Shown: one piece after another, positions 310-13,884 of the stretch | Layout: each line of letters begins with the position of its first letter | How positions within the stretch are numbered: the stretch's first letter is position 1 | Origin: Fluviicola chungangensis | Lineage (GTDB): Bacteria; Bacteroidota; Bacteroidia; Flavobacteriales_D; Crocinitomicaceae | Reading direction: 5' to 3' | NCBI RefSeq assembly: GCF_007558725.1 | Contig: NZ_VLPL01000008.1 | Coordinates: 1 to 64,000 of the forward strand | DNA: 64,000 bases | Translations under genes and position numbers: made by a program | The notes under the pieces: model-generated | The model's input: only the letters and a program-made list of their open reading frames with translations | What the model was told of the DNA's origin: nothing | Database searches by the model: none

Positions 310-333
310 GATGAAATTCAGCGAAAACATATT

Positions 334-363
334 AAAAAAAATGGAGGTGCTGTAACACCTCCA
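334..363 (-). terminator. Intrinsic terminator, minus strand
   Basis: Perfect 8-bp stem TGGAGGTG (342-349) and CACCTCCA (356-363) with a 6-base loop. On the minus strand it is followed by eight T residues (complement of 334-341). On the plus strand there is no T-run, so its direction is leftward. Confidence 0.7.
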
Positions 364-438
364 CTAAACGCATTCGGTTGTTTACAGATGGCTCGACATG
401 CAAAACCTTGCAATTGATGGTTAACCGCCGAAAACGCT
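334..438 (-). ncRNA. Candidate small structured RNA, minus strand
   Basis: A complete Bacteroidota-type promoter (TTTG, 20 bases, TATCTTTG) points leftward and would start RNA near 436-438. About 70 bases on is a strong hairpin followed by eight U residues. The predicted transcript is about 105 nt. It can form a hairpin around TTGCAAGGTTTTGCA and partly pair its 5' end (TTCGG) with CCGAA just before the terminator. There is no credible reading frame in it. I do not recognise an Rfam class. It is divergent from the precursor gene that starts at 489. Confidence 0.42.
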
Positions 439-442
439 TTTG

Positions 443-474
443 CAAAGATATAGAAACAGAGTAGGCGGAACAAA
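443..474 (-). promoter_or_regulatory. Bacteroidota-type promoter, minus strand
   Basis: On the minus strand the -33 box TTTG (471-474) and the -7 box TATCTTTG (443-450) are separated by 20 bases, matching the known TTTG/TAnnTTTG consensus of the phylum. It would drive the short RNA ending at 334. Confidence 0.55.
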
Positions 475-488
475 TAAATCATGCTATT

Positions 489-710
489 ATGGCAACAAAA
501 AAAATCGAGTCATTGAGCTCAAAAAAGTTTGATTCAAAGAATTTAGGAAAAGTTTTAGGAGGGGTTCCTACTTACGGACCTTATTACGGAACAATTAATG
601 GGAAGTACTATCCAGGTGGAACAGATGACGAAGCACGTCATACATACAATCCAGATGGATACCCAGCAGGTACCGAAGGTGATGGTGATGACTTCGCTTG
701 GTGTATCTAA
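489..710 (+). CDS. Double-glycine-leader RiPP precursor peptide
   Basis: This 73-residue peptide is the likely substrate of the downstream modification and export genes. Residues 1-25 form a leader that ends LGKVLGG, the double-glycine site cut by C39 peptidases, and resemble the GG-leader natural product precursors of Bacteroidota. The predicted 48-residue core starts VPTYGPYYG. It is rich in Gly, Tyr, Thr and acidic residues (TDDE, EGDGDD) and ends AWCI. Thr/Lys plus Asp/Glu in the core suit ATP-grasp ring formation (ester or amide), but the actual linkage is inferred. Only one cysteine is present, so it is not a lanthipeptide-like core. A strong hairpin follows immediately. Confidence 0.85.
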   Translation: MATKKIESLSSKKFDSKNLGKVLGGVPTYGPYYGTINGKYYPGGTDDEARHTYNPDGYPAGTEGDGDDFAWCI

Positions 711-723
711 TCTTTGATTAAAC

Positions 724-758
724 AAGGCAATCAAATGAAAGCTTCATTTGGTTGCCTT
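724..758 (+). promoter_or_regulatory. 16-bp hairpin between precursor gene and the rest of the operon
   Basis: AAGGCAATCAAATGAA (724-739) pairs with TTCATTTGGTTGCCTT (743-758) across a 3-base loop, with a single G-U pair. There is no long T-run after it, so it is more likely a partial terminator or mRNA end stabiliser than a full stop. It would let precursor mRNA exceed enzyme mRNA. It overlaps a possible TTG start at 752, which argues for the ATG at 773 as start of the next gene. Confidence 0.7.
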
Positions 759-772
759 TAAACTCTAACGTT

Positions 773-1672
773 ATGAAGTATTTGATTTTGATTTTTGTCG
801 TTTTGGCAAGCCAATGTTCTTTTGGACAATTAATAAACCATATTGAATATAAGAAAGATTGCAATATTGTTTATCTGAGAGTAGATTCTTCCAAATACAA
901 AGCAGCATTGACCACACTTAAAAAATTAGAAAAAAAATATGGAAGTTTATATACAGAAGAGTATATCCTTAGGGCGTTTTGCTATCATAAACTTAACAAT
1001 AATAAAAAGGCATCAATTGCAATGGAAGTTGCGTGGTCTCATCGAATTTGTGATCCAGCGTATCTTAATCAAATCGATGGATTTGACTGGGTTAAGATGG
1101 GAGAATCTTTTAATGAAAAGGAAAAGAAAAGATTAAATCAAGGTTATGAAAACAATCTCAAACTTAGAAGCAAAGATTTCGATTCACTTGCTTTCCTGGT
1201 TAAAGAATTGTCGGATAAAGATCAGAAATACAGAGCTTTTTTATCGCCAAAAAAAATGGAATCATTAGGTGATAGCTTATCAATACTTTCAATAGAGCAA
1301 GACTCTTTGAATATCCTTGAATTCGAAAGAATTTATTCTAAATATGGTTTTCCGGGAGAACAGATCTCATGTCTTTTTTCAACTCGATTATTAGCCTTCC
1401 TTTTACATTCAGCAGATTATAATTGGTTTGTAGATCGAATGAGACCAAAATTTTTAATTGATGTAAAGAATGGTGATATGCCTGCGTCATTATTCCTGAT
1501 TTGGGTTGATAGGAACTCAAATTCCAATGGCAAAAAAGAAGAATTCGCAATGTATGTCAATCCGAAGAGTTTTGAAGCTACACCGCTAGAAATTCAATTA
1601 ATTAAACAGGCAAGGCTTGAATATGGAATCGTAAACTCTTTTCGAGTACCTTATAATTTTACACACCATTAA
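773..1672 (+). CDS. Secreted protein of the RiPP operon, DUF6624-like C-terminal half
   Basis: Starting at the ATG at 773 gives a clean signal peptide (MKYLILIFVVLASQCSFG) and 299 residues. The first third is helical and TPR-like. The C-terminal half has KDQKYR, then YSKYGFPGE, then LHSAD and WVDR, a pattern that resembles DUF6624 proteins common in Bacteroidota, whose function is unknown to me. It stands between the precursor and the ATP-grasp gene, one base before the latter's ATG. It could act on or sense the exported peptide, but nothing shows that. The DUF6624 assignment is by eye. Confidence 0.65.
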   Translation: MKYLILIFVVLASQCSFGQLINHIEYKKDCNIVYLRVDSSKYKAALTTLKKLEKKYGSLYTEEYILRAFCYHKLNNNKKASIAMEVAWSHRICDPAYLNQIDGFDWVKMGESFNEKEKKRLNQGYENNLKLRSKDFDSLAFLVKELSDKDQKYRAFLSPKKMESLGDSLSILSIEQDSLNILEFERIYSKYGFPGEQISCLFSTRLLAFLLHSADYNWFVDRMRPKFLIDVKNGDMPASLFLIWVDRNSNSNGKKEEFAMYVNPKSFEATPLEIQLIKQARLEYGIVNSFRVPYNFTHH

Positions 1673-1673
1673 T

Positions 1674-2645
1674 ATGATTTTTATTTTCTCGGAAAATGTA
1701 AGTTATTCTGCAAGACACGTGGCGAGGTATCTTTTGAAAGAGAAGCAATCTTTTGAGGTTTTTTTGGAAACAGATAAAATTGATTTTTGCTATAACTTGA
1801 ATTCATCAGGTAATCAAATTTCGATTCTTAAAAATGGACAATTTTTATGCTCGTATACTGATTTAAAATCGGTATGGGCACATAGGAGCGAAATTAATAT
1901 TGAAAAAAAACAATATTCTAAACTTGAAAGAAAAGAGCTTAGTTATGTGAAAAGACATGAAGATACACAAGTTAAATCAATTCGAAACTTACTGCATAAA
2001 AAGAAATGTCTCGGTCGTTTTGGAAAATTGAATTTCAATAAGATTATTTTCCTGAATGCTTGTCAAGAATTGGAAATCAGAATTCCCAAAACATTAATTA
2101 CGCGAAAGAAGGATGATTTAATCCCATTTTTTAGTGAACAGAGGAATGGTGTTATCGTTAAATCAATTGCTGAAAATTTTCATCATTGTGTCTCAATTTC
2201 ACAACATGAACAAATTTGGCAACATGGAACCACTAATCTATTAGATGAAGTAAAATTAAAGAAGATTCCTGAAGAATTTGATTTGAGTTTGTTTCAAGAA
2301 AAATTGGATAAAAAATATGAATTGCGTGTTTTTTATTTAGATGGAATTTGCTTTCCTCAGATAATTTTTTCCCAAAAACATTCTTTTTCGGAAGTTGATT
2401 ATAGATTAGGTCTTGGTGAATCTGAAATGCGTCAAGGAAATTTTAATTTGCCGATGAATGTTCAGGGCCAAATAAAAGACTTGATGAATTCACTTGATCT
2501 CAATGTAGGTTGCATAGACATTGTAGTTACTAAGCAAGATGAATATGTCTTTTTAGAAGTCAATCCATCAGGAATTTTTACCGATATGGTAGGTAATTGC
2601 AATTATGACATACACTATGAAATAGCAAAATATTTGATGTTATGA
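1674..2645 (+). CDS. ATP-grasp peptide maturase, grasp-with-spasm type
   Basis: This 323-residue protein resembles the ATP-grasp maturases of the grasp-with-spasm peptide systems. It is related to RimK and to microviridin-type ligases, which activate Asp/Glu side chains with ATP and join them to Ser/Thr/Lys. Visible motifs are SVWAHRSE near residue 67-73, ELRVF at 216-220 (the place of the D-x-R motif in graspetide ligases, here E-L-R), and FLEVNPSG at 293-300, which carries the metal-binding Glu and Asn. It starts at ATG 1674 directly after the previous stop, and its last codons overlap the next gene by 4 bases. The likely substrate is the peptide encoded at 489-710. Confidence 0.83.
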   Translation: MIFIFSENVSYSARHVARYLLKEKQSFEVFLETDKIDFCYNLNSSGNQISILKNGQFLCSYTDLKSVWAHRSEINIEKKQYSKLERKELSYVKRHEDTQVKSIRNLLHKKKCLGRFGKLNFNKIIFLNACQELEIRIPKTLITRKKDDLIPFFSEQRNGVIVKSIAENFHHCVSISQHEQIWQHGTTNLLDEVKLKKIPEEFDLSLFQEKLDKKYELRVFYLDGICFPQIIFSQKHSFSEVDYRLGLGESEMRQGNFNLPMNVQGQIKDLMNSLDLNVGCIDIVVTKQDEYVFLEVNPSGIFTDMVGNCNYDIHYEIAKYLML

Positions 2646-2836
2646 AATCAGAAATTGGAACAATAGATGCATTACTTGCAGAAGAAAAAAGTTATCCGGT
2701 TGAAAATCTTCCAACAACGGAACCAAACGGAATAAAAATTGGAATAATTGGATTTCAAAACGTTCAATATAGAGAAAGACTTCAACGATCAATTTCGAAG
2801 ATTATTAATCCTTCCACTATAATAGATGAAAACTGA
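2642..2836 (+). CDS. Small protein (64 aa) between the two maturases, unknown
   Basis: The frame overlaps the ATP-grasp gene by 4 bases (ATGA) and the SPASM gene by 11, so it is very likely translated by coupling. The product has no signal peptide, no membrane segment and no cysteine, and begins MKSEIGTIDALLAEEKSYPV. It lacks a double glycine, although IGIIGF is present. It could be a leader-binding partner for the maturases, a second precursor, or an immunity factor. I do not recognise a family. Confidence 0.65.
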   Translation: MKSEIGTIDALLAEEKSYPVENLPTTEPNGIKIGIIGFQNVQYRERLQRSISKIINPSTIIDEN

Positions 2837-3959
2837 CTTGAATTACATTACACTGTACCCAAATATAATTCCCGTCCGTGGGTATAGTCGTTCTATTCTA
2901 ATGGATTTGAACATGGGGAAGTTTCTTTTTATTCCGAATTACTTTTGTGACTTTTTAATTGAAAACAAAACTAAAAATCTTCAAAAAGTTGATTTTCTTA
3001 ATTTCGGCAATTCTGAAAACGACGTTGATGAAATTAATAGGTTAGTAGATCTTTTAATTCAGGAAGATTATTTAACCGAAGTTGATTCCAAATTACTAAG
3101 TGGACTTAAAGTTGAAGTTCCATTTATTACAGACGATACGTTAATCAGTGACTGTATAATTGAAATTTCAAACCTATCTAGTTGGAATATATCTGTTTTT
3201 CTGGCTAAAATAAACACCCTTGGAGTTAAATTTTTGGAAATTCGTTTTCTTGACTTTACTTCATTTGAAAAACATTACAAAAAAATTCAATTCGACCTTA
3301 CAGACCATTCTATTGAATTTTTACATTTTATCGTTCCTGGAGATGATAATTTGAATGAAATTATTTCTAATGAAATGATGACATTTCATAGACTAAATCA
3401 ACTAACTATATATAATTCTAAAGGCAAATTTGAAATAGAAGGAGTCCCTTTTATTTTAAGTTTTTCAACGCAAAACAGCATTGACAATTCAAATTGTGGT
3501 TGTATTAACCCTTCTCAGTTTAATTGTAACATTGCCAGCTATTACGCTAATAAAAAAAGCAACAATTGTCTTTCTCAAAAATTGAGCATAGATCAATATG
3601 GAGATATAAAAAATTGTCCTTCAAAGAAAGAATCTTTTGGAAAATTAGAAACCGTTAATTTAGAGCGGACAGTTCAATTAAATGAGTTTAGAAAGGAATG
3701 GCACATTACAAAAGAATCAATATTAGTTTGCTCTGATTGCGAACTTCGCTGGATGTGCTCCGATTGTAGAGTTTTTATTCAGGATGAATCAAATCCATTG
3801 TCCAAACCGTCAAAATGTGGCTATAACCCTTATATCAATAAATGGATTAACGAAGAAGGGTATTTATCAGAATCAGAATGTGGTGTTTCTATTGTGGATA
3901 ACAGGCTCACAATTGACCAAGTAAAATTAAATGAAATTAATTCTGAGTTATGGGGATAA
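2826..3959 (+). CDS. SPASM-domain peptide maturase, grasp-with-spasm type, no radical-SAM motif
   Basis: The 377-residue protein has a C-terminal cysteine-rich region typical of SPASM domains: Cys at about 224, 226, 234, 248, 264, then CSDC-ELRWM-CSDC at 302-314 and C331. Such domains bind auxiliary iron-sulphur clusters in peptide-modifying enzymes. The N-terminal 220 residues hold only two cysteines (41 and 110) and no CxxxCxxC, so it cannot be a conventional radical SAM enzyme. Residues 105-145 look like a decayed barrel strand and helix. It matches the SPASM partner that accompanies the ATP-grasp ligase in grasp-with-spasm loci. Its role may be leader recognition, which is inference. It overlaps the next gene by 10 bases. 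Confidence 0.82.
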   Translation: MKTDLNYITLYPNIIPVRGYSRSILMDLNMGKFLFIPNYFCDFLIENKTKNLQKVDFLNFGNSENDVDEINRLVDLLIQEDYLTEVDSKLLSGLKVEVPFITDDTLISDCIIEISNLSSWNISVFLAKINTLGVKFLEIRFLDFTSFEKHYKKIQFDLTDHSIEFLHFIVPGDDNLNEIISNEMMTFHRLNQLTIYNSKGKFEIEGVPFILSFSTQNSIDNSNCGCINPSQFNCNIASYYANKKSNNCLSQKLSIDQYGDIKNCPSKKESFGKLETVNLERTVQLNEFRKEWHITKESILVCSDCELRWMCSDCRVFIQDESNPLSKPSKCGYNPYINKWINEEGYLSESECGVSIVDNRLTIDQVKLNEINSELWG

Positions 3960-4711
3960 AAAGACTTTTAGTATTTATTACAGTACTTTTTTTGCAAGAA
4001 TCAGATGCTTTTTCGCAAGAGTTTATTCAGACTAAACGCTTGGACTCTTTATCCGTTTTTTTTAAATTTGGTAGTTATGAGGTCCAGAATCCACAAAGAT
4101 TGATTGCCAGATGCAGTAGGATAAAGGCAACTTCTGGAAAGATTAAAATAACTTCGTATACAGATACTATCGGCAGTCAAAAATCAAATCAAAAGCTGGC
4201 CGCTAAAAGATTAAATTCAGTTTCTAAAATTTTAAGATCGACTAGCTTAAGTTCTTTTGCGATAGATAGTATAAACAAAAATGAACAACGGGATTTAAAG
4301 AAGAAACTAAATGACAGTACTTTCAGAAGAGTTGACATTGTCATTTACAGCGTAGAAAATAAGTTTAAACTTAATTCTCCAATTAATCTTGATATTAACT
4401 TCGTATCAGAAACAGATAAAATAGTTCCCGAATCATCAGAAAATTTAAAAATATTATTATCTATCATTCGGGGCGATAGTACGTTAAACGTTCAATTGAA
4501 TGGTCATGTTTGTTGCAGACCAGGACAAGAATTATCCGAAAAACGTGCGTTAGCAGTTAAAAAGTATCTGGTTTCTAATGGGATTAAATCTAACCGAATT
4601 GAATGTAAAGGATTTAGTAATAGTATTCCCTTATTTCCACGTACGGATATTCAGAACGTACATAAAAACATGCGTGTTGAAGTTATTTTCACTAAACCCA
4701 AAACTAACTAA
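3950..4711 (+). CDS. Exported protein with two OmpA-like domains
   Basis: The 253-residue protein has an N-terminal signal peptide (cleavage near DAFSQ, residue 22). Residues about 30-130 and 145-250 each look like an OmpA C-terminal peptidoglycan-binding fold. The first has FKFGSYEV, TSYTDTIGS and RRVDIVIY. The second has LNGHVCCRPGQELSEKRA and MRVEVIF. No beta-barrel domain is attached. It lies inside the RiPP operon just before the exporter, so it may anchor the export machine to the wall or protect the producer. The duplication of the domain in one small protein is unusual. Confidence 0.75.
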   Translation: MGIKRLLVFITVLFLQESDAFSQEFIQTKRLDSLSVFFKFGSYEVQNPQRLIARCSRIKATSGKIKITSYTDTIGSQKSNQKLAAKRLNSVSKILRSTSLSSFAIDSINKNEQRDLKKKLNDSTFRRVDIVIYSVENKFKLNSPINLDINFVSETDKIVPESSENLKILLSIIRGDSTLNVQLNGHVCCRPGQELSEKRALAVKKYLVSNGIKSNRIECKGFSNSIPLFPRTDIQNVHKNMRVEVIFTKPKTN

Positions 4712-6931
4712 TTGAGATCATTCCCAACATATTTACAGCCTGATTCAATGGATTGCGGTCCAACATGCCTACGTATGATTGCAAAACACTACGGAAAATC
4801 AATTTCGCTAGATAAATTGCGTAATCTATGTGAAACAACAAAATTAGGAAGTAGTTTAAAAGGAATAAGTGATGCTGCCGAGACTATTGGTTTTAGAACC
4901 TTAGCGGTGAAAATTGATTTGGAAAGTTTAAAGAAAGAAGCTCCACTACCTTGCATTTGTTTTTGGAACGAACAACATTATGTCGTTGTATATAAAATTA
5001 AAGGTGACAAATTTTATATTGCAGATCCAGGAAAAGGTAAGCTTGTTTATTCTAAAAGCGAGTTTTTGAAAAGCTGGATTGGAATCCATGCGGATGAAAA
5101 TACTGAAGAAGGCATTGTATTACTGCTTGAACCAACACCATTTTTAAACGAAAACGAAGAAGATAATAGCGAAAATAATAAGAATGGATTCAGATTTCTT
5201 TTTAAATATTTGAAAGGCTATCGTAAATTATTAATACAACTTAGTTTTGGCTTACTTGCAGCTAGTCTTTTGCAATTAATATTTCCATTCTTAACTCAAA
5301 GCGTTGTTGACATTGGAATTCAAAATAAGGACATTCATTTTCTTTATTTAATCCTTTTTGGACAATTATTTGTGTTCTTAGGAAAAATGAGTGTTGAGAT
5401 AATTCGGAGTTGGTTATTATTACATTTGAGCGCGAGGGTAAATATCTCATTAGTTTCCAATTTCCTAATCAAGTTAATGAAGTTGCCAATATCCTTTTTT
5501 GACACTAAAAAGATTGGTGATATTATGCAACGAGTTGACGATCATCATCGAATAGAAACTCTTTTGACGAATCAGACATTAAGCGTTCTTTTTTCATTTT
5601 TCAATTTTATTGTATTTAGTGTTGTTTTGATAATATATAGTTTTCCTGTCTTTTTAATCTTCGTAGTGGGCAGTATAATCTATTTCTTATGGGTCCGAAT
5701 CTTTCTCAAAAGAAGAAAAGATTTGGATTACAAACGCTTTTCTCAAGGAGGGGAAGATCGGTCTAAAATTGTCGAACTCATTCAAGGAATGCAAGAGATT
5801 AAGTTGCATAATGCAGAAAGGCAAAAACGATGGGGTTGGGAAAGAATACAAGTTCGTGTGTTCAAATTAAGAATCAAAAGTCTCCGTTTAGAACAACTTC
5901 AGAGTAATGGTGCCTTGTTTATTAATGAGTTTAAGAACATATTAGTAAGTTTTTACACTGCTAAATTGGTGATTGATGGACAATTGACTCTTGGGATGAT
6001 GTTATCGGTATCCTATATAATTGGACAGTTGAACGCACCTATTTCGCAGTTCTTGTCATTTATTTATGCTGTCCAAGATGCCAAAATTTCTCTTGATAGA
6101 CTTTCCGAAATCCATGATAGAGAAGATGAAGAACCTGAAAATTCTAATAGACAGAATGAATTACCGGATAATAAAAATTTGGTTTTAGAAGATGTAACCT
6201 TTAGATATGCCGGAGGTGAAAATTCGGTTCTCAGGGACATCAATTTAACTATAAAATCCAACCAATTAACTGCAATTGTTGGAGCAAGCGGAAGTGGCAA
6301 GACAACTTTAATGAAACTTTTATTGAGGTTTTATGAACCTACCAATGGAAAAATTAAAATTGGTTCTGTGGAACTGGAGAATTTCACACAAAGAAGTTGG
6401 AGGGAAAATTGTGGTTCTGTAATGCAAGACGGTTATCTTTTTAATGATACAATTGCAAATAATATCGCTATCGGAGAAGATCGAATTGATAAAGAAAAAT
6501 TAAAACAAGCCGTTAAAATAGCCAATATTCAAGAATTTATTGAAAGTCTACCATTAGGCTACAATACAAAGATTGGAAATGAAGGAATGGGGATCAGTGG
6601 GGGACAAAAACAACGTATTTTAATTGCCCGGGCTGTCTATAAAAACCCGACTTTTTTGTTCTTTGATGAAGCGACAAGCTCACTTGATTCAAGAAATGAG
6701 AAAGTAATCATGCAAAATCTGGATGAATTTTTTCAAGGCAGAACCGCTGTTGTAATTGCCCACAGACTAAGTACTGTAAAAAATGCTGATCAGATTATTG
6801 TTTTAGACAATGGAACAATGGTAGAAAAAGGAACGCATAAGGAACTTATTGCATTGAACGGGGCTTACTATAATCTTGTTCAAAGTCAGCTTGATTTGGA
6901 GAAAACTGAGAAGATAGAAATCAATTCATAG
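4712..6931 (+). CDS. C39-peptidase ABC exporter for double-glycine peptides
   Basis: This 739-residue inner-membrane exporter cuts the leader after Gly-Gly and exports the core using ATP. Residues 1-140 are a peptidase C39 domain with SMDCGPTCL (catalytic Cys 15), EQHYVV (His) and IADPGKGK (Asp). A membrane domain follows at about 165-460. The nucleotide-binding domain has GASGSGKTT (Walker A), ISGGQKQR (signature), FLFFDEATSSLD (Walker B) and AHRLST. The start is a TTG immediately after the previous stop; it places the C39 cysteine at the normal distance from the N terminus and no ATG fits better. It works with the HlyD and TolC-type genes that follow. Confidence 0.93.
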   Translation: MRSFPTYLQPDSMDCGPTCLRMIAKHYGKSISLDKLRNLCETTKLGSSLKGISDAAETIGFRTLAVKIDLESLKKEAPLPCICFWNEQHYVVVYKIKGDKFYIADPGKGKLVYSKSEFLKSWIGIHADENTEEGIVLLLEPTPFLNENEEDNSENNKNGFRFLFKYLKGYRKLLIQLSFGLLAASLLQLIFPFLTQSVVDIGIQNKDIHFLYLILFGQLFVFLGKMSVEIIRSWLLLHLSARVNISLVSNFLIKLMKLPISFFDTKKIGDIMQRVDDHHRIETLLTNQTLSVLFSFFNFIVFSVVLIIYSFPVFLIFVVGSIIYFLWVRIFLKRRKDLDYKRFSQGGEDRSKIVELIQGMQEIKLHNAERQKRWGWERIQVRVFKLRIKSLRLEQLQSNGALFINEFKNILVSFYTAKLVIDGQLTLGMMLSVSYIIGQLNAPISQFLSFIYAVQDAKISLDRLSEIHDREDEEPENSNRQNELPDNKNLVLEDVTFRYAGGENSVLRDINLTIKSNQLTAIVGASGSGKTTLMKLLLRFYEPTNGKIKIGSVELENFTQRSWRENCGSVMQDGYLFNDTIANNIAIGEDRIDKEKLKQAVKIANIQEFIESLPLGYNTKIGNEGMGISGGQKQRILIARAVYKNPTFLFFDEATSSLDSRNEKVIMQNLDEFFQGRTAVVIAHRLSTVKNADQIIVLDNGTMVEKGTHKELIALNGAYYNLVQSQLDLEKTEKIEINS

Positions 6932-6933
6932 TT

Positions 6934-8223
6934 ATGGAAGAGAAGAGATACATAGATATTGAATTGAAGAGTGAACAAATGAATGAAATGCTATCAAATC
7001 CACCTTCATGGATTGTAAGATCAGGAAATGGAGTATTTCTAATTGTTTTATTGGTAATTATTGGTCTTGCATGGTTTATTCGTTATCCGGATGAAATTGC
7101 AGGTGAAGTACTAGTGACTTCTTCCAAACCACCTATTGAACTTTCAAATCAAGGTTATATTCAATTAAAAACTTTAAATGTTTCAGAAAATGAAGAAGTA
7201 AGAATTGGAGATTTAATAGCTCAATTTGATATTCAAGCAAAATCAGGAGACGTAGAAAAGGCTAGGAATTACTTGGGTCAGTTGGAAGTGTTTAATGGGA
7301 AGTATCAAAAACAAATACCGGTCTTTAGTCAACCGTTGAAACTTGGAACTTTTCAAGAACAATGGACAACCCTTCTTTCAAAAGTGGCGGAATGGAATAG
7401 CGAGCATTCGGAAAATATAACACAACAAGAATTAGCATCCATTCAAAGAGAGATTTCATTTCGAGAGCAATTGCAAATAATTTCAAACAAGAAAATTAAG
7501 TTGTCTGAAGGTGAGTATGAATTGATTCAAGAACAATTGGCAAGCAGTGAACGGTTAGCGGAACAAAACGCCATTTCAAAGCAAACATTAACACAAGATA
7601 AACGAACACAAACGCAAGCCCTGCAATCTGTTCAAAGTCAAAAAGAACAGCATGTACAAAATCTAATCACATTAAATACTTTAAGAAAGGAACGTTTCCG
7701 ATTGGAGCATGATGCAAAATTGAAGGAACTTAAAATGTCCTCGGAAATTCAAATTGGTATTTCTGTACTTATGAATGGTTTTCAGACATGGGAAAAGAAT
7801 GTTGTTTGGATTGCTCCGTGTACTGGAAAAGTAGTCTTTAATAAACTACTTCAAGTTAATCGTTTTTACAAAACCAATGAAGCTTCAATTGTTATTGTTC
7901 CGAAAGGGAGCGGTTATATAGCACTTGCAACAATTGAAAGCGCAGGATCTGGAAAGGTAATGGTTGGACAAAAGACATTCATTGAACTAATTGATTTCCC
8001 TAAAGCTGAATTTGGAATGTTGGAAGGAAATGTAAGTAAGATTACCAGAATAGATAAGGAGGGTAAGTATGAAGTAAAAATACGATTGCCAAAACAAATG
8101 AAAACAACCTATAACAAGGATATTCCATTCAAAGCACAATTGAAAGGGAATGTAAAAATTATTACAAAGGATAAACGTTTGTTAGAGCGATTCTTTGAGC
8201 AATTAACTGATCTTATTAAATGA
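6934..8223 (+). CDS. HlyD-family membrane fusion protein
   Basis: The 429-residue protein links the ABC exporter to an outer-membrane channel. It has one N-terminal membrane segment at about residues 31-50 (FLIVLLVIIGLAWFIRY). It then shows half a lipoyl/barrel-sandwich domain, a long Gln- and Glu-rich coiled coil at about 95-270, and the second barrel half from about residue 285 (WIAPCTGKVVF). It starts 2 bases after the exporter stop and overlaps the next gene by 4 bases, so stoichiometric expression is likely. Confidence 0.9.
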   Translation: MEEKRYIDIELKSEQMNEMLSNPPSWIVRSGNGVFLIVLLVIIGLAWFIRYPDEIAGEVLVTSSKPPIELSNQGYIQLKTLNVSENEEVRIGDLIAQFDIQAKSGDVEKARNYLGQLEVFNGKYQKQIPVFSQPLKLGTFQEQWTTLLSKVAEWNSEHSENITQQELASIQREISFREQLQIISNKKIKLSEGEYELIQEQLASSERLAEQNAISKQTLTQDKRTQTQALQSVQSQKEQHVQNLITLNTLRKERFRLEHDAKLKELKMSSEIQIGISVLMNGFQTWEKNVVWIAPCTGKVVFNKLLQVNRFYKTNEASIVIVPKGSGYIALATIESAGSGKVMVGQKTFIELIDFPKAEFGMLEGNVSKITRIDKEGKYEVKIRLPKQMKTTYNKDIPFKAQLKGNVKIITKDKRLLERFFEQLTDLIK

Positions 8224-9494
8224 GGTTGATATTTTTAATAGGCTCGTTTTTTTTGTTTTCTGCTGTTTCAGGTCAGGAAGTAATTACGCTACAATTCTGT
8301 TTAGATAGGGTAAAGAATAATTCAATCCAAACAGTAACAGAATCCAGCTTATTAAATAGCTCACAGGTAAATAGTCAATATCATTGGTGGAGTTTGCTAC
8401 CGAACCTAAGCGCATACGCTGGGGTTAACACATCCTTTGGACGTAGGCTCGATCCTTTTACGAACACGTTTGCAACCAGTTCCGTTAACTCTCAATCATT
8501 TGGATTGAATTCAAGTGTTACGCTGTTTAACGGGTTTAATTATTTCTATAAGCGAAATATACTTACCGGAACCATAAAACGAAATGAAATCACTTTAACA
8601 GCCAAACTGAATGAATTGAGAATACAGGTGATCGAAACCTATGTTACTTTATGTAAACTTTCCACTCAGACCAAAATGGCTGAATCACGAATTGAAAAAT
8701 ACAAGCAGATTCAAGCCATTCAGCGTTTGCTAATACAAGAAGGCAGAATTAATTCAATTGATACGCTTAAAAGCAATAATTCATTACTGAATGAACAGGA
8801 TTTACTATTAAACTTATCCAATGAATTAAGACTAAATACGATTCAATTAAGTTTTCAAATAGGATTGCCATTATCAGCGAACTACACCTTTGATTTAGCA
8901 TCTATTTCATCAATTAACGATAAACTCACGTTTTCGGAGAAATATAATATTGAATCCCTTGAAATTGAATCTGAAATACTGGAAAGTCAATTAAAATCTG
9001 ACCGTTCCAATATTGTGCCAACTATTGCTCTAAATGGGTTGGTTGGAACAGGGTTCTCAACTAATAACAAAGATTATTTAATTCCTGGAAGTCCTACAAA
9101 ACGTTATGGAGACCAAATCAATCAAAACCTTTATGAAGGAATAGGATTCTATTTGAGTGTTCCAATATTTAATCGCGGTGAATGGCTCAAAACAAAGCGA
9201 TTAAACACTATTAAACAGACTGAAATTGCTAATAAAAAGCAACTAGCGGAATTATCGTTTGAAAAGCAGAAATTGGAGTTAGAACAAAAGTTGCTCAATA
9301 TTAGAGCGAAGCAAGAACAGACTAGAGAAATGACAAATAACTTAGAATTAATCTATAAGAAAAGCTTGTTATTGTATGAAGAAGGGCGCATAACCTATAC
9401 AGAAATTGAAATTTCATTTATGGATTGGCAAATGAAATTATTGGAATATGAATCCTTGAAATTGGATTATGAAAAGTTAAAGATTTATGAGTAA
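8220..9494 (+). CDS. TolC-family outer-membrane efflux protein
   Basis: The 424-residue protein has a signal peptide (cleaved near AVSGQ, residue 19). It has the repeated layout of TolC-type channels: long helices such as 120-200 and 320-420 alternating with barrel-strand regions such as SAYAGVNTSFGRRLD. It should form the outer-membrane exit for the processed peptide. It is a little shorter than E. coli TolC, as usual in Bacteroidota RiPP loci. The stop overlaps the next reading frame by 8 bases. Confidence 0.88.
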   Translation: MRLIFLIGSFFLFSAVSGQEVITLQFCLDRVKNNSIQTVTESSLLNSSQVNSQYHWWSLLPNLSAYAGVNTSFGRRLDPFTNTFATSSVNSQSFGLNSSVTLFNGFNYFYKRNILTGTIKRNEITLTAKLNELRIQVIETYVTLCKLSTQTKMAESRIEKYKQIQAIQRLLIQEGRINSIDTLKSNNSLLNEQDLLLNLSNELRLNTIQLSFQIGLPLSANYTFDLASISSINDKLTFSEKYNIESLEIESEILESQLKSDRSNIVPTIALNGLVGTGFSTNNKDYLIPGSPTKRYGDQINQNLYEGIGFYLSVPIFNRGEWLKTKRLNTIKQTEIANKKQLAELSFEKQKLELEQKLLNIRAKQEQTREMTNNLELIYKKSLLLYEEGRITYTEIEISFMDWQMKLLEYESLKLDYEKLKIYE

Positions 9495-9837
9495 GAATAA
9501 CTCTTTGAATATCTCTTTTGAAGATTTATTCAAATTAATCATTGGTTTTATTATCGATGATCTAAAAGTGCAAAAGCATTACTATAATTTAAGTCTAAGC
9601 GGATTAGATACAACACCCCTCCAATTAAACTTGCATGATGGAATATTTATTTTGGTTGGGTTTAAGGAGATTGATATAACTGAAGAAATTAAACAGTGGT
9701 ATTTTAAGCAAACAGAACGCGTTTTTACTATGGATATAACTAATGACGAAAAAGCACTCCGAAATTTATCTTCTGAAATCCTCGAAGGATTACTAAAAGC
9801 GCGAAATAATTTGTATTCACAAAAAAGGAAACAATAG
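9487..9837 (+). CDS. Unknown cytoplasmic protein (116 aa) at operon end
   Basis: The frame overlaps the TolC-type gene by 8 bases and is the last gene of the operon. The product has no signal peptide and no convincing membrane segment. It is rich in Leu, Ile and charged residues, with a Lys/Arg-rich C terminus. I do not recognise a family. Position suggests a role in the peptide system, for example immunity or regulation, but the sequence itself gives no function. Confidence 0.65.
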   Translation: MSKNNSLNISFEDLFKLIIGFIIDDLKVQKHYYNLSLSGLDTTPLQLNLHDGIFILVGFKEIDITEEIKQWYFKQTERVFTMDITNDEKALRNLSSEILEGLLKARNNLYSQKRKQ

Positions 9838-9959
9838 TTGATCTGAAATTGGTAAGACCAAAATTCAAATAGAATTTTCAAAACAATGTTTACTCTAGTC
9901 TTTCTCTCAATAACGAATGCGAATTTATGTTTTGAGAGAAGTAGTAGAAATCTGTTCCA

Positions 9960-10080
9960 AATCCACCATCAAAAAGTTCGAAATTTCGGTCAACGGGGTC
10001 ACAAAAAGAAAAAGCGAATTACGGTAGTAGTTCGCTTTTCTTTTTGCCCTCAATACTCACTCTCACACTCGCTCTGTCTT
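9960..10080. repeat. Hairpin repeat block, copy A
   Basis: The order is: AATCCACCATCAAAAAGTT, then GGTCACAAAAAGAAAAAG, then a hairpin, then a CT-rich CTCACTCTCACACTCG tail. The same order with many identical bases occurs at 12840-12959. The hairpin (10003-10018 with 10031-10045) ends in TTTTCTTTTT and would serve as terminator of the RiPP operon. Confidence 0.6.
10003..10045. terminator. Likely terminator after the RiPP operon
   Basis: AAAAAGAAAAAGCGAA and TTCGCTTTTCTTTTT pair with one bulged A and a 12-base loop. The T-rich right arm fits an intrinsic terminator; the A-rich left arm would also work on the minus strand. Confidence 0.6.
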
Positions 10081-10542
10081 TCAGAGCTATCCTTCGGCTT
10101 TTCTGTCTTGTGAGACAGAGCCTCAGTCTTCACAAGCTGTGCTTGCTCTTCTTTCAGTGTGAGTTTTGAGTGCGGAATCCGTGTTCGAAGTTTCAATTGA
10201 ACTTCCTCCTTTGAAGGAGGACCGAGGAGGATGGCGAAGCAAAATCTCCCGCAAATCATTGATTTTATTGTGTTTTTCTATCGAATCAAAGTGGTTCGAA
10301 TCCAATTGGGTTTTAGACTTATTTCTTTCCCGGAATTTTTTTTAACAGTGAGTTGGTTTTCAGAATTATTGTTTAGTATTGGGGTAGTAACGAAGATTAT
10401 TCGCAAAAACATCTGAAATTCAGTATAAAATCCGATTTTAATTAGTTGTAAGTAGTTGGAGTTGCGCATATAAATAAGTTATAGGCAATATTGGGCTATT
10501 AAAAGACCGAATGAAAATATCCTTAGTCAAATTGAAGCTTGA

Positions 10543-10902
10543 ATGCGCCACTCACAAACATTTGACGTGAAAAATTTAAAATTAAAAATATTATGTTCAT
10601 TCGCCTTTTTGATTATAATCGTCATAACAACTACGATTTTCAATGCTTATTATGCTAGAAAAGAACTTAGACAAAAAGTTAATTTCATTGTTGCAAGAAT
10701 TCATATCACACCCTCTTTAAGGTGCTATCTGTATGACAAATCAGAAAACCAACTAAAATTAAATAGTTATACATTTTACGAGAGCTCAGGGTTGAAAGTC
10801 GGTGACAGTCTTGTTAAAATTAGCAATTCACCCACCATTGTTTGTTACCGAAAAAATTACAAAGGAAAATATACTGTTATTGAGGAATTTGAACCTAATT
10901 AA
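10543..10902 (+). CDS. Small membrane protein, unknown (putative cassette gene 1)
   Basis: The 119-residue protein has one membrane segment at about residues 15-34 (LCSFAFLIIIVITTTIF), so the rest probably faces the periplasm. The C-terminal part is beta-rich, with GLKVGDSLVKI and YTVIEEFEPN. This resembles short Bacteroidota membrane proteins of unknown role that often sit alone. It is flanked by possible recombination boxes, and a long palindrome lies 15 bases after its stop. Confidence 0.6.
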   Translation: MRHSQTFDVKNLKLKILCSFAFLIIIVITTTIFNAYYARKELRQKVNFIVARIHITPSLRCYLYDKSENQLKLNSYTFYESSGLKVGDSLVKISNSPTIVCYRKNYKGKYTVIEEFEPN

Positions 10903-10917
10903 ATTAACATTACTACT

Positions 10918-11050
10918 GCCTATAACAACAGGTTTAAGTTAAGCCTCGGGCGAAGTGTAAACACAAGAATTTGAAGCTATTTATTTAGATTAGTGCTATA
11001 GGGTTTTGGTGCAAGTAAATTAGGCTCAACTTAAACCTGCAAACCGTTAG
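10918..11050. repeat. attC-like long palindrome 1
   Basis: CAGGTTTAAGTTAAGCCT (10929-10946) and AGGCTCAACTTAAACCTG (11022-11039) pair over 18 positions with one G-U. Outer boxes are GCCTATAAC (10918-10926) and CCGTTAG (11044-11050). Total length about 130 bases fits the known range of attC sites. Confidence 0.55.
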
Positions 11051-11124
11051 TGTAATTACATGTAACATTCAAAAGAATTCGCTTTTATCTAATGAAGTAC
11101 GTAAATTCAACCAAACGACAAGAT

Positions 11125-11592
11125 ATGAAATTACCAATTCCGTATCTTCTGTTTCTAATGATTGTTCTTTTACAATCCGCTTCAACTCAGGCTCAAAAAA
11201 TTTCGGACGAAGAAATTTATTTTAATGTATGGCATATTACTAACATTAGTCTCGATTCTAACACAATTATTAATATGGATACTTTAATCTTAAGACAAGC
11301 ATTAAGATCCGGACATACTCATTATCCTGACAGTACCACCATTTCTCCATATGATACCTGGAATATTAGTTTCGGAGAATATCATGATTTAACAATATAC
11401 TCTGTTCAGCGTCCACCGACCGGAATCGGTATTAATCGCAGCGAATATTATACTGAAATGTATTCCTGTTTAAACACTGTCTGGAGTAGAAATCACAAAG
11501 AGATTATTTTTAAAATAGGCACTCAACCTCCAGTAAAATACTTTATTGATCAATATTCACATCTTGAGTTAATATTGGTGAAATTAGAATGA
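11125..11592 (+). CDS. Secreted protein, unknown (putative cassette gene 2)
   Basis: From the ATG at 11125 the product is 155 residues with a signal peptide (MKLPIPYLLFLMIVLLQSASTQAQ). An earlier ATG at 11092 would add 11 polar residues before it and is less likely. The mature part is rich in Thr, Ser and Tyr and beta-rich, with no motif I recognise. It is followed within a few bases by a long palindrome that may be a recombination site. Confidence 0.6.
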   Translation: MKLPIPYLLFLMIVLLQSASTQAQKISDEEIYFNVWHITNISLDSNTIINMDTLILRQALRSGHTHYPDSTTISPYDTWNISFGEYHDLTIYSVQRPPTGIGINRSEYYTEMYSCLNTVWSRNHKEIIFKIGTQPPVKYFIDQYSHLELILVKLE

Positions 11593-11674
11593 TACCCATA
11601 ACATCAACAAAAATCCACGGGCTAAACAACCACAACCGAGAAGCCCGCGTCTCCTAGTTGAAAACCGTTATAAC
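11593..11674. repeat. attC-like long palindrome 2
   Basis: ATAACATCAAC near 11599 faces GTTGAAAACCGTTAT at 11657-11671, and the inner arms CGGGCT (11618-11623) and AGCCCG (11642-11647) pair. The outer box CCGTTATAAC echoes the end of palindrome 1. Pairing is weaker than in palindrome 1. Confidence 0.45.
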
Positions 11675-11781
11675 TATGCTAGCTCTTAATCTTGATTAAA
11701 GGTGTTCGACTCTAGAGAATGATGAGCTTTAACTGTGGAACAAATCCCACATTTTTCTACCTTCGAACCAAATTACACTCA

Positions 11782-12750
11782 ATGATTTGCAAACAATTAC
11801 TTGTTTTTCTTCTAACAGCAATAGTGCTATCTGCCTGTAACTCCGGAAATTCGAAAAAAGTGAAAACCAAGGTTATACCTGAAGCTCAGAAACAAAAAGC
11901 TGTTCATTCGGATAAGAAGACGAAGCCCGATGCGTCAGGAGATTCGAAGGATAAACCGAATACTGAAAATGTATTTCGACGTTACGATGCCGTTAAAAAA
12001 ATCCTGAAAAAATGGAATGAGGCAATTAGTGAGCACCGGCTGTCTGATCTCGAAAATTTGTATGCAGATGAAGTGTCATATTATTCTAAAAAGAGCAACA
12101 AACAAGCAGTTTTAACCCAAAAATCCGACTGGTTAAAAATACACCCCTCTTACAAACAAGAATTGGGTTATGTGGATGTTTATTATGATGATGAAGATGT
12201 TTTGGGAGTAGAATTTGTGGTGCAATTCACTAAAATATGCATTGAAAACGGGAAGAAAACGGAGATCGAATCGTATTTGTATTTTCGAAAATTCGGGAAT
12301 GAGTGGAAAATAGTTCGGGAAACAGATGCTCCCACAGAAGTGAATGTGGCACGAAAGAAACCGGTGACGAACCTTCCGGAAGGGAATTACAATTATTACA
12401 CCGGGCAATGGTCAGATACACGCGATGTTCAAGGATTTGGACATGATCAGGTACCTTATAGTGTGAACCTGAATTTTACAATTGGAGTCGGCGGAATTAC
12501 CGGAGTTTATCATTATTATAGCGGTACTGCGAGAAGCCGTACCTTTTATTTGATAAAAAGTGGAAAGATAGATAATGGAATTCTGGAGTTACACGTAATT
12601 TACTCGCAAGTGGATGATCCAGAACCTGAAGACTTTGATGAAGACGCAGAAACAGAAACATGGCGCTTCAAGATCCTTGAAAACAAACAGTTGTTTTCCC
12701 TTTCAAAGGATGAGGCTTTTTATTCCCGTGCTTTGAGACCAATCAAATAG
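11782..12750 (+). CDS. Lipoprotein with an NTF2-like (SnoaL/DUF4440-type) domain
   Basis: Choosing ATG 11782 gives a lipoprotein signal MICKQLLVFLLTAIVLSAC with a lipobox and 322 residues. A Lys/Asp-rich linker follows. Then comes an NTF2-like fold (VKKILKKWNEAISEHRLSDLENLYADEVSYY... EWKIVRET), a cone-shaped fold used by many small-molecule binding and secretory proteins. The last 120 residues (PEGNYNYYTGQWSDTRD onward) form a separate beta-rich domain that I cannot name. The function is unknown. A strong terminator-like block follows. Confidence 0.75.
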   Translation: MICKQLLVFLLTAIVLSACNSGNSKKVKTKVIPEAQKQKAVHSDKKTKPDASGDSKDKPNTENVFRRYDAVKKILKKWNEAISEHRLSDLENLYADEVSYYSKKSNKQAVLTQKSDWLKIHPSYKQELGYVDVYYDDEDVLGVEFVVQFTKICIENGKKTEIESYLYFRKFGNEWKIVRETDAPTEVNVARKKPVTNLPEGNYNYYTGQWSDTRDVQGFGHDQVPYSVNLNFTIGVGGITGVYHYYSGTARSRTFYLIKSGKIDNGILELHVIYSQVDDPEPEDFDEDAETETWRFKILENKQLFSLSKDEAFYSRALRPIK

Positions 12751-12839
12751 GGACCCTCGCTAAGCAACAACGTTTTCTTAGTTTTGTTTCTACAAATAAT
12801 AATTTATTTTGAATCTAGCGATTCATGTAATATAAGTTC

Positions 12840-12959
12840 TAAATCTCCAACAAAAAGTTTGATGCATCTCCGCTTGAGATCACAAAAAGAAAAAAGCATC
12901 GCAATAGTGATGCTTTTTTCTTTTTGTCCCTCTTCACTCACACTCCACACTCACACTGA
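12840..12959. repeat. Hairpin repeat block, copy B
   Basis: It is the second copy of the block at 9960-10080: AAATCTCCAACAAAAAGTTT, GATCACAAAAAGAAAAAAG, hairpin, then a CTTCACTCACACTCCACAC tail. Between the copies lie the two putative cassettes and the NTF2-like gene. Confidence 0.6.
12884..12925. terminator. Bidirectional terminator after the NTF2-like lipoprotein gene
   Basis: Perfect 17-bp stem: 12884-12900 with 12909-12925, 8-base loop, left arm starting AAAAAG and right arm ending TTTTTTCTTTTT. Confidence 0.75.
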
Positions 12960-13013
12960 GTTGATGGATCAGGACCAATTCTCGGGGACTAAGTATAAAT
13001 TTGCCTGAATCGG

Positions 13014-13050
13014 AAAAAGCCATGATCCGATGGGAGGATCATGGCTTTTT
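13014..13050. terminator. Strong bidirectional terminator
   Basis: AAAAAGCCATGATCC (13014-13028) pairs with GGATCATGGCTTTTT (13036-13050), 15 bp with a 7-base loop. The surrounding gene-free stretch 12751-13460 also holds hairpin block B and, on the minus strand, a possible promoter (TATTTTTG at 13134-13141). Confidence 0.8.
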
Positions 13051-13396
13051 TCCTAACCTAACAAGAGTTTTTCAGTATCTAAGTTGTAATCCGAAAGGAA
13101 TTTGTTTTACGCTATAAATTTCTTTCAACGCTGCAAAAATAAAGCGATTGGGTTACTTGAAGTACAAAAAAATGCCGAATCAAGGAGAAAATTGAGTGAA
13201 CAGGTTTAATTAACAAGTTAATGATTTCGGCCCTTCGTGTGTCAGGTAAATTACTTTAGTAAAATTTAGTTTAATTCCCTTTGGAAGCTTTTTTAAACGA
13301 AAAATTCCCCTAATTTTAAGAACCCATAAATTGAGTCATTTTCTTAATCGGATAGAGGGAATACAGGCAGATTCTTTTTTTCATGGGGAATGACTA

Positions 13397-13404
13397 TATT
13401 TTTG
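13397..13404 (+). promoter_or_regulatory. Putative -7 promoter box before the 13461 gene
   Basis: TATTTTTG fits TAnnTTTG and lies 56 bases before the ATG at 13461. The expected -33 TTTG is replaced by a T-run near 13375, so the promoter is moderately supported. Confidence 0.4.
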
Positions 13405-13460
13405 CGTAAAAAAACATGTTTTGATTACTTAACTTTTTGTCTAACTAAAAAAAGCGTTTT

Positions 13461-13880
13461 ATGGAAGTCACCATTCAAAATTACACCGTTCAGCCGGTAA
13501 TGTTGCCGCTCACTCCGGTTGGTTCACCCACCTTAGCGGATCCAACTGCAATTGATGCAGTATACAGCACTTCAACTCAGAAGTTAACAGTCGCTATGAC
13601 CTTTATGATTCCCGGAGACCTCAATCCAAACCAGGTATCGATCAAGCAATATTACGATTCTTCCGATTCGTGTAACCTCCAGTTTTATGCTGTTTACAGT
13701 TCGAGTTCAACGGCAACTCCCAAGCCAGTAACCTGTTCGTTTAAAGCGTCAGCTGTGGATGCTGCTGGACATGACATCGATTTGGGAGCCATATTGACTT
13801 TGTTTATTCTGCTTGTTAATACGGTGGGGCCGAAAAGTTCTCGTGGTATAATGAGTACTGTTAGAACGACAGAACAATAA
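13461..13880 (+). CDS. Unknown protein (139 aa) upstream of a histidine kinase
   Basis: The protein has no signal peptide and no obvious membrane segment. It is beta-rich and full of Ser, Thr and Val, beginning MEVTIQNYTVQPVMLPLTPV, with cysteines only in DSCNL and VTCSF. I do not recognise a family. It ends 4 bases before the kinase start, so the two are probably co-transcribed. It could be a ligand or a secreted-like target, but no export signal is visible. Confidence 0.6.
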   Translation: MEVTIQNYTVQPVMLPLTPVGSPTLADPTAIDAVYSTSTQKLTVAMTFMIPGDLNPNQVSIKQYYDSSDSCNLQFYAVYSSSSTATPKPVTCSFKASAVDAAGHDIDLGAILTLFILLVNTVGPKSSRGIMSTVRTTEQ

Positions 13881-13884
13881 AAGT

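Follow-up and report, generated by a model that had tools for sequence, protein, structure and literature searches.

A conserved pseudoknotted leader RNA precedes the precursor gene of a candidate graspetide operon with a SPASM protein in Fluviicola chungangensis

The branch 5 graspetide loci of Bacteroidetes, 190 of which are counted in the accessible parts of Makarova 2022 (PMC8939145), combine an ATP-grasp protein, a SPASM protein, diverse double-glycine (GG) precursors, a small LPL-type protein encoded directly 5' of the SPASM gene, a cluster 23 protein, a C39 peptidase ABC exporter (C39-ABC) and an HlyD protein. A matching set, its LPL-type and cluster 23 members putative, is present in the freshwater bacterium Fluviicola chungangensis, a member of the Crocinitomicaceae, within the first 64 kb of contig NZ_VLPL01000008.1 of its 4.27-Mb genome; this whole stretch of 64,000 nucleotides (nt) is the window referred to below. 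The peptide system is of this known kind, and the RNA that leads its precursor gene is the new part: neither the RNA nor an OmpA-like gene of the window is mentioned in those parts of PMC8939145, which also call the SPASM protein a "radical SAM enzyme" (SAM, S-adenosylmethionine), in contrast to the radical-SAM motif being found here in 0 of 40 homologues. In the scheme of Carter 2026 (PMC13097080, accessible parts) the window system probably belongs to graspetide group 14, an assignment made because the SPASM partner alone fits rather than from a repeat of the Carter network. Group 14 is named there for its SPASM partner only, and partner-protein-dependent ligases occur in groups 15 and 21. 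A product of group 14 is not described in those parts, nor is one for this peptide system in the accessible parts of either paper, consistent with an earlier first-pass annotation of the window, which knew of no characterised product for the type. We read the locus, with a probability of about 0.6 for the scheme as a whole, as a graspetide operon of the Bacteroidetes ATP-grasp-with-SPASM type in which an RNA leads the precursor message and the SPASM protein is a partner of the ligase.

The regions 5' of eight precursors have a common conserved noncoding stretch, which in the window is an element of about 160 nt that ends at the precursor ATG. It is built from a first hairpin, P1 (343-349/356-362), a pseudoknot, PK1 (350-355 with 382-387), a helix, P3 (about 407-413/440-447), and a short pairing, P4 (427-429 with 464-466), and its conservation also covers long stretches that lie in no helix, GCCGAAAA and AGAGTAGGC. 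On 27 sequences (alignment A6), 86.4% of the cells in P1, PK1, P3 and P4 are paired and 18 of the 29 pairs have changed on both sides. The covariation score of 0.328 on these sequences compares with 0.162 (standard deviation, sd, 0.012) for shuffles, none of 500 of which reached it, and with 0.084-0.128 for slid versions. Within the pseudoknot, one pair is found as GC in 18 sequences, UA in 7, AU in 1 and GU in 1, and another as UA in 18, CG in 8 and GC in 1. A search model built from the first eight sequences, with gene positions unused (R1), was extended with 19 of the 23 further places read to give a second model (R2), leaving out two truncated places (L112, L114) and two weak ones (L107, L108). 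Another 29 sequences were found by R2 and kept out of the model. Some of them are closely related to each other, and they were aligned to a model that included P1 and P3 and left out PK1 and P4. Each of the six PK1 pairs is formed in 25-28 of these 29, and the variants include CUGGAA/UUCCAG and CUGACA/UGUCAG. RNAalifold missed P3 on the first alignment because the helix was misaligned there. The first eight sequences had suggested a UUCGGC/GCCGAA pairing; this was dropped when the wider set favoured GCC/GGC, which is present in about half of the held-out sequences. The pattern of the first hairpin occurs at two places in this genome, both 5' of precursors, and at none in the control. As a single strand, the window element folds modestly better than shuffles (z -1.7, with 9 of 200 shuffles as good); for the element of the paralogous locus L005, z is -3.8. 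A GG peptide at about 311-418 was considered as a frameshifted second precursor and rejected, its "NGGAVTPP" being the RNA hairpin read out of frame with its ATG.

Downstream-peptide RNA (RF01704) is also structured and takes its name from short peptide genes 3' of it; in the accessible parts of PMC2864571 it comes from Cyanobacteria and marine samples, and the window element has no credible Rfam match. Scans of the loci tested against 4227 Rfam families (at E ≤ 5, ≤ 1 and ≤ 10) gave no match at gathering score, and the overlaps seen lie far below it: Ref66 at L104 (21.5 of 92 bits), BTnc231 at L103 (17.8 of 80.4) and mir-184 on the other strand at L092 (23.7 of 54.1). The leader RNA is apparently undescribed so far; no match was found in a literature that largely leaves subscription papers uncovered, so an earlier description is possible.

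The element is paired with a second structure on the other side of the gene. The first-pass annotation had described one tightly overlapping operon, and this does not apply throughout, as 62 nt holding a strong hairpin (z -6.3) lie between the precursor and the next gene. Of 40 RNA-linked peptide genes, 32 have a fold with z < -2 within 75 nt on their 3' side (z < -3 in 27), compared with 2 of 39 at control positions 300 nt further on, and the hairpins of the window's clade, compared across its eight loci, have no common sequence. The window hairpin could be an attenuator, or it could mark where a short precursor message ends. For the leader RNA, control of translation or of message stability seems likelier than transcription attenuation, because the element reaches the start codon and leaves no room for a terminator. 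It is also conceivable, at somewhat less than even odds, that the element regulates nothing and serves as a passive clamp at the 5' end, stabilising the precursor message or holding the start region open. Its end near the start codon, the hairpin 3' of the gene and the several kinds of gene that follow it would all suit a clamp, but the long conservation of GCCGAAAA and AGAGTAGGC, which lie in no helix, exceeds, in our judgement, what a clamp needs.

The precursor reads ...KVLGG|VPTYG... at its GG junction and has the composition expected of a graspetide precursor, a leader followed by a core with Ser, Thr and Lys as donors and Asp and Glu as acceptors. Against its closest homologue, L051, the nonsynonymous and synonymous divergences (dN and dS) are 0.23 and 0.92 (leader 0.18/0.74, core 0.26/1.02). 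Strong matches occur at eight loci, two in its own genome and six in five genomes of the same genus; a ninth match (E 0.006, G106) stands outside this count. The dN and dS values, together with the presence of all eight strong matches in the same operon, support the precursor as a real gene. The first-pass annotation would have given up its reading had precursor homologues never occurred with the maturases; all eight strong matches lie next to them. Across the eight aligned precursors (two identical; alignment read by eye), T/S28-Y-G, T35, D47-x-A, T52-Y-N and D67 are kept. The acidic stretches TDDE and EGDGDD, which the first-pass annotation had pointed out in the core, vary among relatives.

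The homology of the ATP-grasp protein supports the graspetide-type ligase proposed earlier, for which side-chain ring formation in the core is predicted. A profile of 35 sequences finds, over its full length, the microviridin/CdnC ligases 5ig9, 7m4s, 5ig8 and 7mgv (CdnC), with E from 1.4e-51 (5ig9) to 3.2e-44 (7mgv); we take 5ig9 to be MdnC and 5ig8 to be MdnB. The expected active residues are kept, with K123, K163, Q208, K213, E216, R218 and D242 in 35 of 35 sequences and D282, E295 and N297 in 33, as in a ligase of the MdnC/MvdD/CdnC kind. That such a product would be a protease inhibitor, as opposed to a signal or antimicrobial, we rate at a little under an even chance. According to the accessible parts of Makarova 2022 (PMC8939145), the graspetides characterised by that time are protease inhibitors, but that statement concerns ligases of other branches, the locus encodes no target, and cores vary greatly within this group.

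At E ≤ 0.1, R1 finds 32 places in 19 of the 240 genomes of the family, and 17 of the 23 places read outside the starting set (G024:C47:9208 is not counted among these) lead directly into a GG peptide, the other six being L098, L101, L107, L108, L112 and L114. R2 finds 68 places in 40 of the 240 family genomes (E ≤ 0.01). In genomes of the order, matches at E ≤ 1e-4 occur in 29 of 399, one of them (G325) from another family, and in G325 no peptide was read 3' of the element, just a frame resembling tetratricopeptide repeats (TPR) 183 nt on. In genomes of the class (E ≤ 0.01), 16 of 395 match, 13 outside the family and one of those strongly (G676, 109 bits). Fifty-eight places were read, 55 of the 68 family places (E ≤ 1e-4) and three of the 13 outside the family (G676, G481, G626); weaker R2 places, several of which are probably chance, were left out. 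By our own rule for a GG-type peptide (an open reading frame, ORF, of up to 110 residues with GG or GA at residues 13-45), the element leads into such a peptide at 40 of the 58, a long ORF at 7, a short ORF without GG at 6, none at 3 and a contig end at 2, and the peptide ATG lies -10 to +6 nt from the model end at the 40 GG-type places. At 100 bits or more, 27 of 28 places lead into a GG-type peptide; most of the 28 are in the model, gene position having been unused in finding them. In addition, this genome's third ATP-grasp locus has an element (39 bits, outside the model) directly 5' of its precursor.

The RNA stands before peptide genes with cores unrelated to one another. In G676, from another family, the element (L163, 4604-4769) precedes the peptide gene of an operon (4765-14100) in which an erythromycin-esterase-like gene, a LanC-like gene, a LanB-type dehydratase gene and a C39-ABC gene follow; from its gene content this cluster is a class I lanthipeptide operon. 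Mean identity over the 45 pairs formed by 10 loci from two genomes is 87% for the RNA, 33% for leaders and 16% for cores, the same 16% as for shuffled cores. Such a contrast might also be left by a DNA-level module, a recombination or capture site for placing new peptide genes whose hairpins act in single-stranded DNA, but we consider this improbable given the covarying pseudoknot between two hairpin regions, the fixed orientation and distance to the ATG, and the lack of a common sequence in the hairpins 3' of the genes. Separately, one RNA-linked precursor (L187, G016:C268), next to a C39-ABC gene, has five DGNFLTA repeats after the GG and looks like a multi-core peptide. At five further places (L179, L173, L174, L176, L177) the element precedes secreted proteins of some 300 residues or more that look tail-fibre-like (...GNVGIGT...); no gene for a ribosomally synthesized and post-translationally modified peptide (RiPP) was seen within the stretch read there, and the one protein scanned had no Pfam match. 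Two other places precede ORFs that look lipoprotein-like.

The SPASM protein scores 202.5 bits against TIGR04193, above the curated cut-off of 175. Its radical-SAM motif is missing: CxxxCxxC occurs in 0 of 40 homologues, with no near variant and no three close cysteines in the barrel part. The cysteines of the SPASM domain are kept, C302, C305, C311 and C331 in 40 of 40 and C248, C264 and C314 together in 26 of 40, the window protein included; we take these sets to be AuxII and AuxI ligands, that is, auxiliary-cluster ligands as in a SPASM domain. An AlphaFold2 model (alignment A1; predicted local distance difference test score, pLDDT, 92.2) has a predicted RiPP recognition element (RRE)-like domain at about 6-93 and a radical-SAM/SPASM-like fold at about 100-350. 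In VIA-align, residues 102-352 match PqqE with Z 13.6, and the fold of about 100-350 resembles PqqE and the SPASM enzymes 6c8v, 5v1q and 5why, from which the window protein differs in lacking CxxxCxxC. The N-terminal part, at about 3-88, has a PqqD-like fold in the model and aligns with 5v1v (Z 8.8, root-mean-square deviation, rmsd, 3.4) and 8t19 (Z 8.7, rmsd 2.8), each over 82 residues; it has no sequence match in the PDB. The motif's absence from the sequences and the predicted RRE-like fold suggest that the protein may be a leader-binding partner of the ligase that performs no radical chemistry. That it is instead a true radical-SAM maturase making thioether or C-C bonds, with the ATP-grasp protein as one of two ring-forming steps, would suit the radical-SAM/SPASM-like fold, the radical SAM label in the accessible parts of Makarova 2022 (PMC8939145) and the Cys in 24 of 40 RNA-linked peptide cores (none in 16), but with the motif in 0 of 40 and Cys absent from 4 of 8 precursors of the window's clade (3 of 7 distinct ones), it is unlikely as judged from the sequence, and we leave it a very small chance.

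Microviridin/CdnC ligases bind the leader themselves. In the window this task would fall to the predicted RRE-bearing partner. In the scheme that we favour, the conserved pseudoknotted RNA would open the precursor message and the hairpin would close it as a short bounded message, with weaker read-through into the maturation genes, and the two structures would let the precursor exceed, and be controlled apart from, the maturation enzymes. The RRE-like domain of the SPASM protein would hold the leader, the protein acting without a radical-SAM cluster as partner of the ATP-grasp ligase, and the 64-aa protein would add another small subunit. Within the core, the ligase would link side chains of Thr to those of Asp or Glu, and C39-ABC, HlyD and TolC would cut after GG and export the product. 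Each of the six genes named in the first-pass annotation (precursor, ATP-grasp, SPASM, C39-ABC, HlyD and TolC) lies at its given place and strand, and homology bears out its ligase and export line; what it overlooked was the RNA element and the absence of the radical-SAM motif from the SPASM partner.

Several observations weigh against this scheme. The window ATP-grasp scores 190.5 bits over its full length against its best family, TIGR04192, short of the curated cut-off of 230 bits; another ATP-grasp locus of the same genome scores 239.9. For the SPASM model, the top Foldseek rows (5why, SuiB, at E 3.3e-5 and weaker) have low TM-scores of 0.29-0.37, and the Z of 8.7-8.8 for the RRE part barely exceeds the tool's ordinary level. 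The 64-aa protein has YPV/NLPT in place of a literal LPL, though its position is that of the LPL family. In the RNA, P4 forms in just 13-16 of the 29 held-out sequences, and upstream promoter scans are weakly enriched: TAnnTTTG occurs in 20 of 55 regions (shuffled 10.1, sd 3.2), together with a -33 box in 3 of 55 (shuffled 1.2), and near P1 in 10 of 57 (shuffled 3.5). Finally, R2 has matches (E ≤ 0.01) at 23 of 36 ATP-grasp/SPASM loci and none at 13, so the RNA is not obligatory; weak matches at L045 and L047 (E about 0.7) end exactly 5' of the precursor start.

The leader motif of other ligases is PFFARFL. By a loose rule, an IS/PIS-type motif lies near the C terminus of 24 of 29 ORFs collected at the LPL position. 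The accessible parts of PMC8939145 liken the LPL motif to the leader motif of other ligases, and from this comes the idea that the 64-aa protein could serve as a leader in trans. A bolder joint reading makes the element at 328-488 a pseudoknotted cis-regulatory sensor, a new switch class bringing one signal to unrelated exported peptides (graspetides, a class I lanthipeptide and others) and some secreted surface proteins in Crocinitomicaceae and a few other Bacteroidota, and has the RRE of the radical-free SPASM protein, with the microviridin-leader-like motif of the small protein in trans, replace leader binding by the ligase; we offer this tentatively and think it rather unlikely to hold in full. 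In G042:C338, a frame of 431 aa that might have joined the small protein and the SPASM protein naturally proved on inspection not to be such a fusion.

Table 1. Features of the operon and its leader RNA, in window coordinates.
Feature	Position	Strand	Evidence
Structured leader RNA element	328-488	+	Covariation, held-out sequences, R1/R2 searches
Precursor peptide, 73 aa, leader to GG25, 48-aa core	489-710	+	Homologues in 8 loci; dN/dS about 0.25
Hairpin 3' of precursor gene	724-758	+	z -6.3; hairpins at same position in 7 other loci
Secreted DUF6624-like protein	773-1672	+	Position, TPR/DUF6624-like features
ATP-grasp graspetide-type ligase	1674-2645	+	TIGR04192 190.5 bits; profile match to 5ig9, 7m4s, 5ig8, 7mgv
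64-aa protein in LPL-family place	2642-2836	+	Directly 5' of SPASM gene
SPASM protein without radical-SAM motif	2826-3959	+	TIGR04193 202.5 bits; RRE-like and radical-SAM/SPASM-like model
OmpA-like protein, signal peptide	3950-4711	+	PF00691 E 2.2e-20
C39 peptidase ABC exporter	4712-6931	+	PF03412, PF00664, PF00005
HlyD-type adaptor	6934-8223	+	TIGR01843 E 2.9e-24, below the model's cut-off
TolC-type outer membrane protein	8220-9494	+	PF02321 E 1.5e-19
116-aa protein, overlaps TolC gene	9487-9837	+	Homologues at operon end in L005, L049, L051, L054

Six of these features go beyond the first-pass annotation: the leader RNA, the hairpin and the genes at 773-1672, 2642-2836, 3950-4711 and 9487-9837. 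The 773-1672 protein is, by our own assignment from position and TPR/DUF6624-like features, a putative cluster 23 protein of Makarova 2022. Nineteen related proteins were found among 30 collected; DUF6624 matches three of the 19 (best E 1.5e-6), the window protein not among them. Its model is all-helical (pLDDT 85.8), with no Foldseek match in the PDB at E ≤ 0.001. The 116-aa protein has no Pfam or NCBIfam match. The OmpA-like gene is present in six of the seven other loci of the window's clade and absent from L051. The usual OmpA motif is GHTD; the window protein has two matched OmpA stretches, the second of which reads GHVC.

The genome contains two further ATP-grasp/SPASM loci, three in all (window, L004 and L005), each with a C39-ABC, HlyD and TolC set of its own and two of the three with OmpA-like genes. 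TIGR04193 matches occur in 30 of the 240 family genomes. Relatives of the window ATP-grasp from named genomes belong to Fluviicola, to metagenome-assembled genomes of Flavobacteriales and to one record titled Glaciecola; this record (CP034120.1, Glaciecola amylolytica THG-3.7), whose title is probably wrong, has two such operons (L076, L080). Two intergenic palindromes lie further along the window, one at 12882-12927 with perfect 19-nt arms around 8 nt and one at 10004-10045 with 84% complementary 19-nt arms around 4 nt.

With the radical-SAM motif missing from the SPASM partner in all 40 homologues, the chemistry to seek in these clusters shifts. The fold of the RNA is strongly backed by covariation, and the RNA is kept while the peptides behind it become unrelated. 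It thus leads to precursor genes overlooked by similarity searches, and it gives a way into the question of when such peptides are made by these bacteria.

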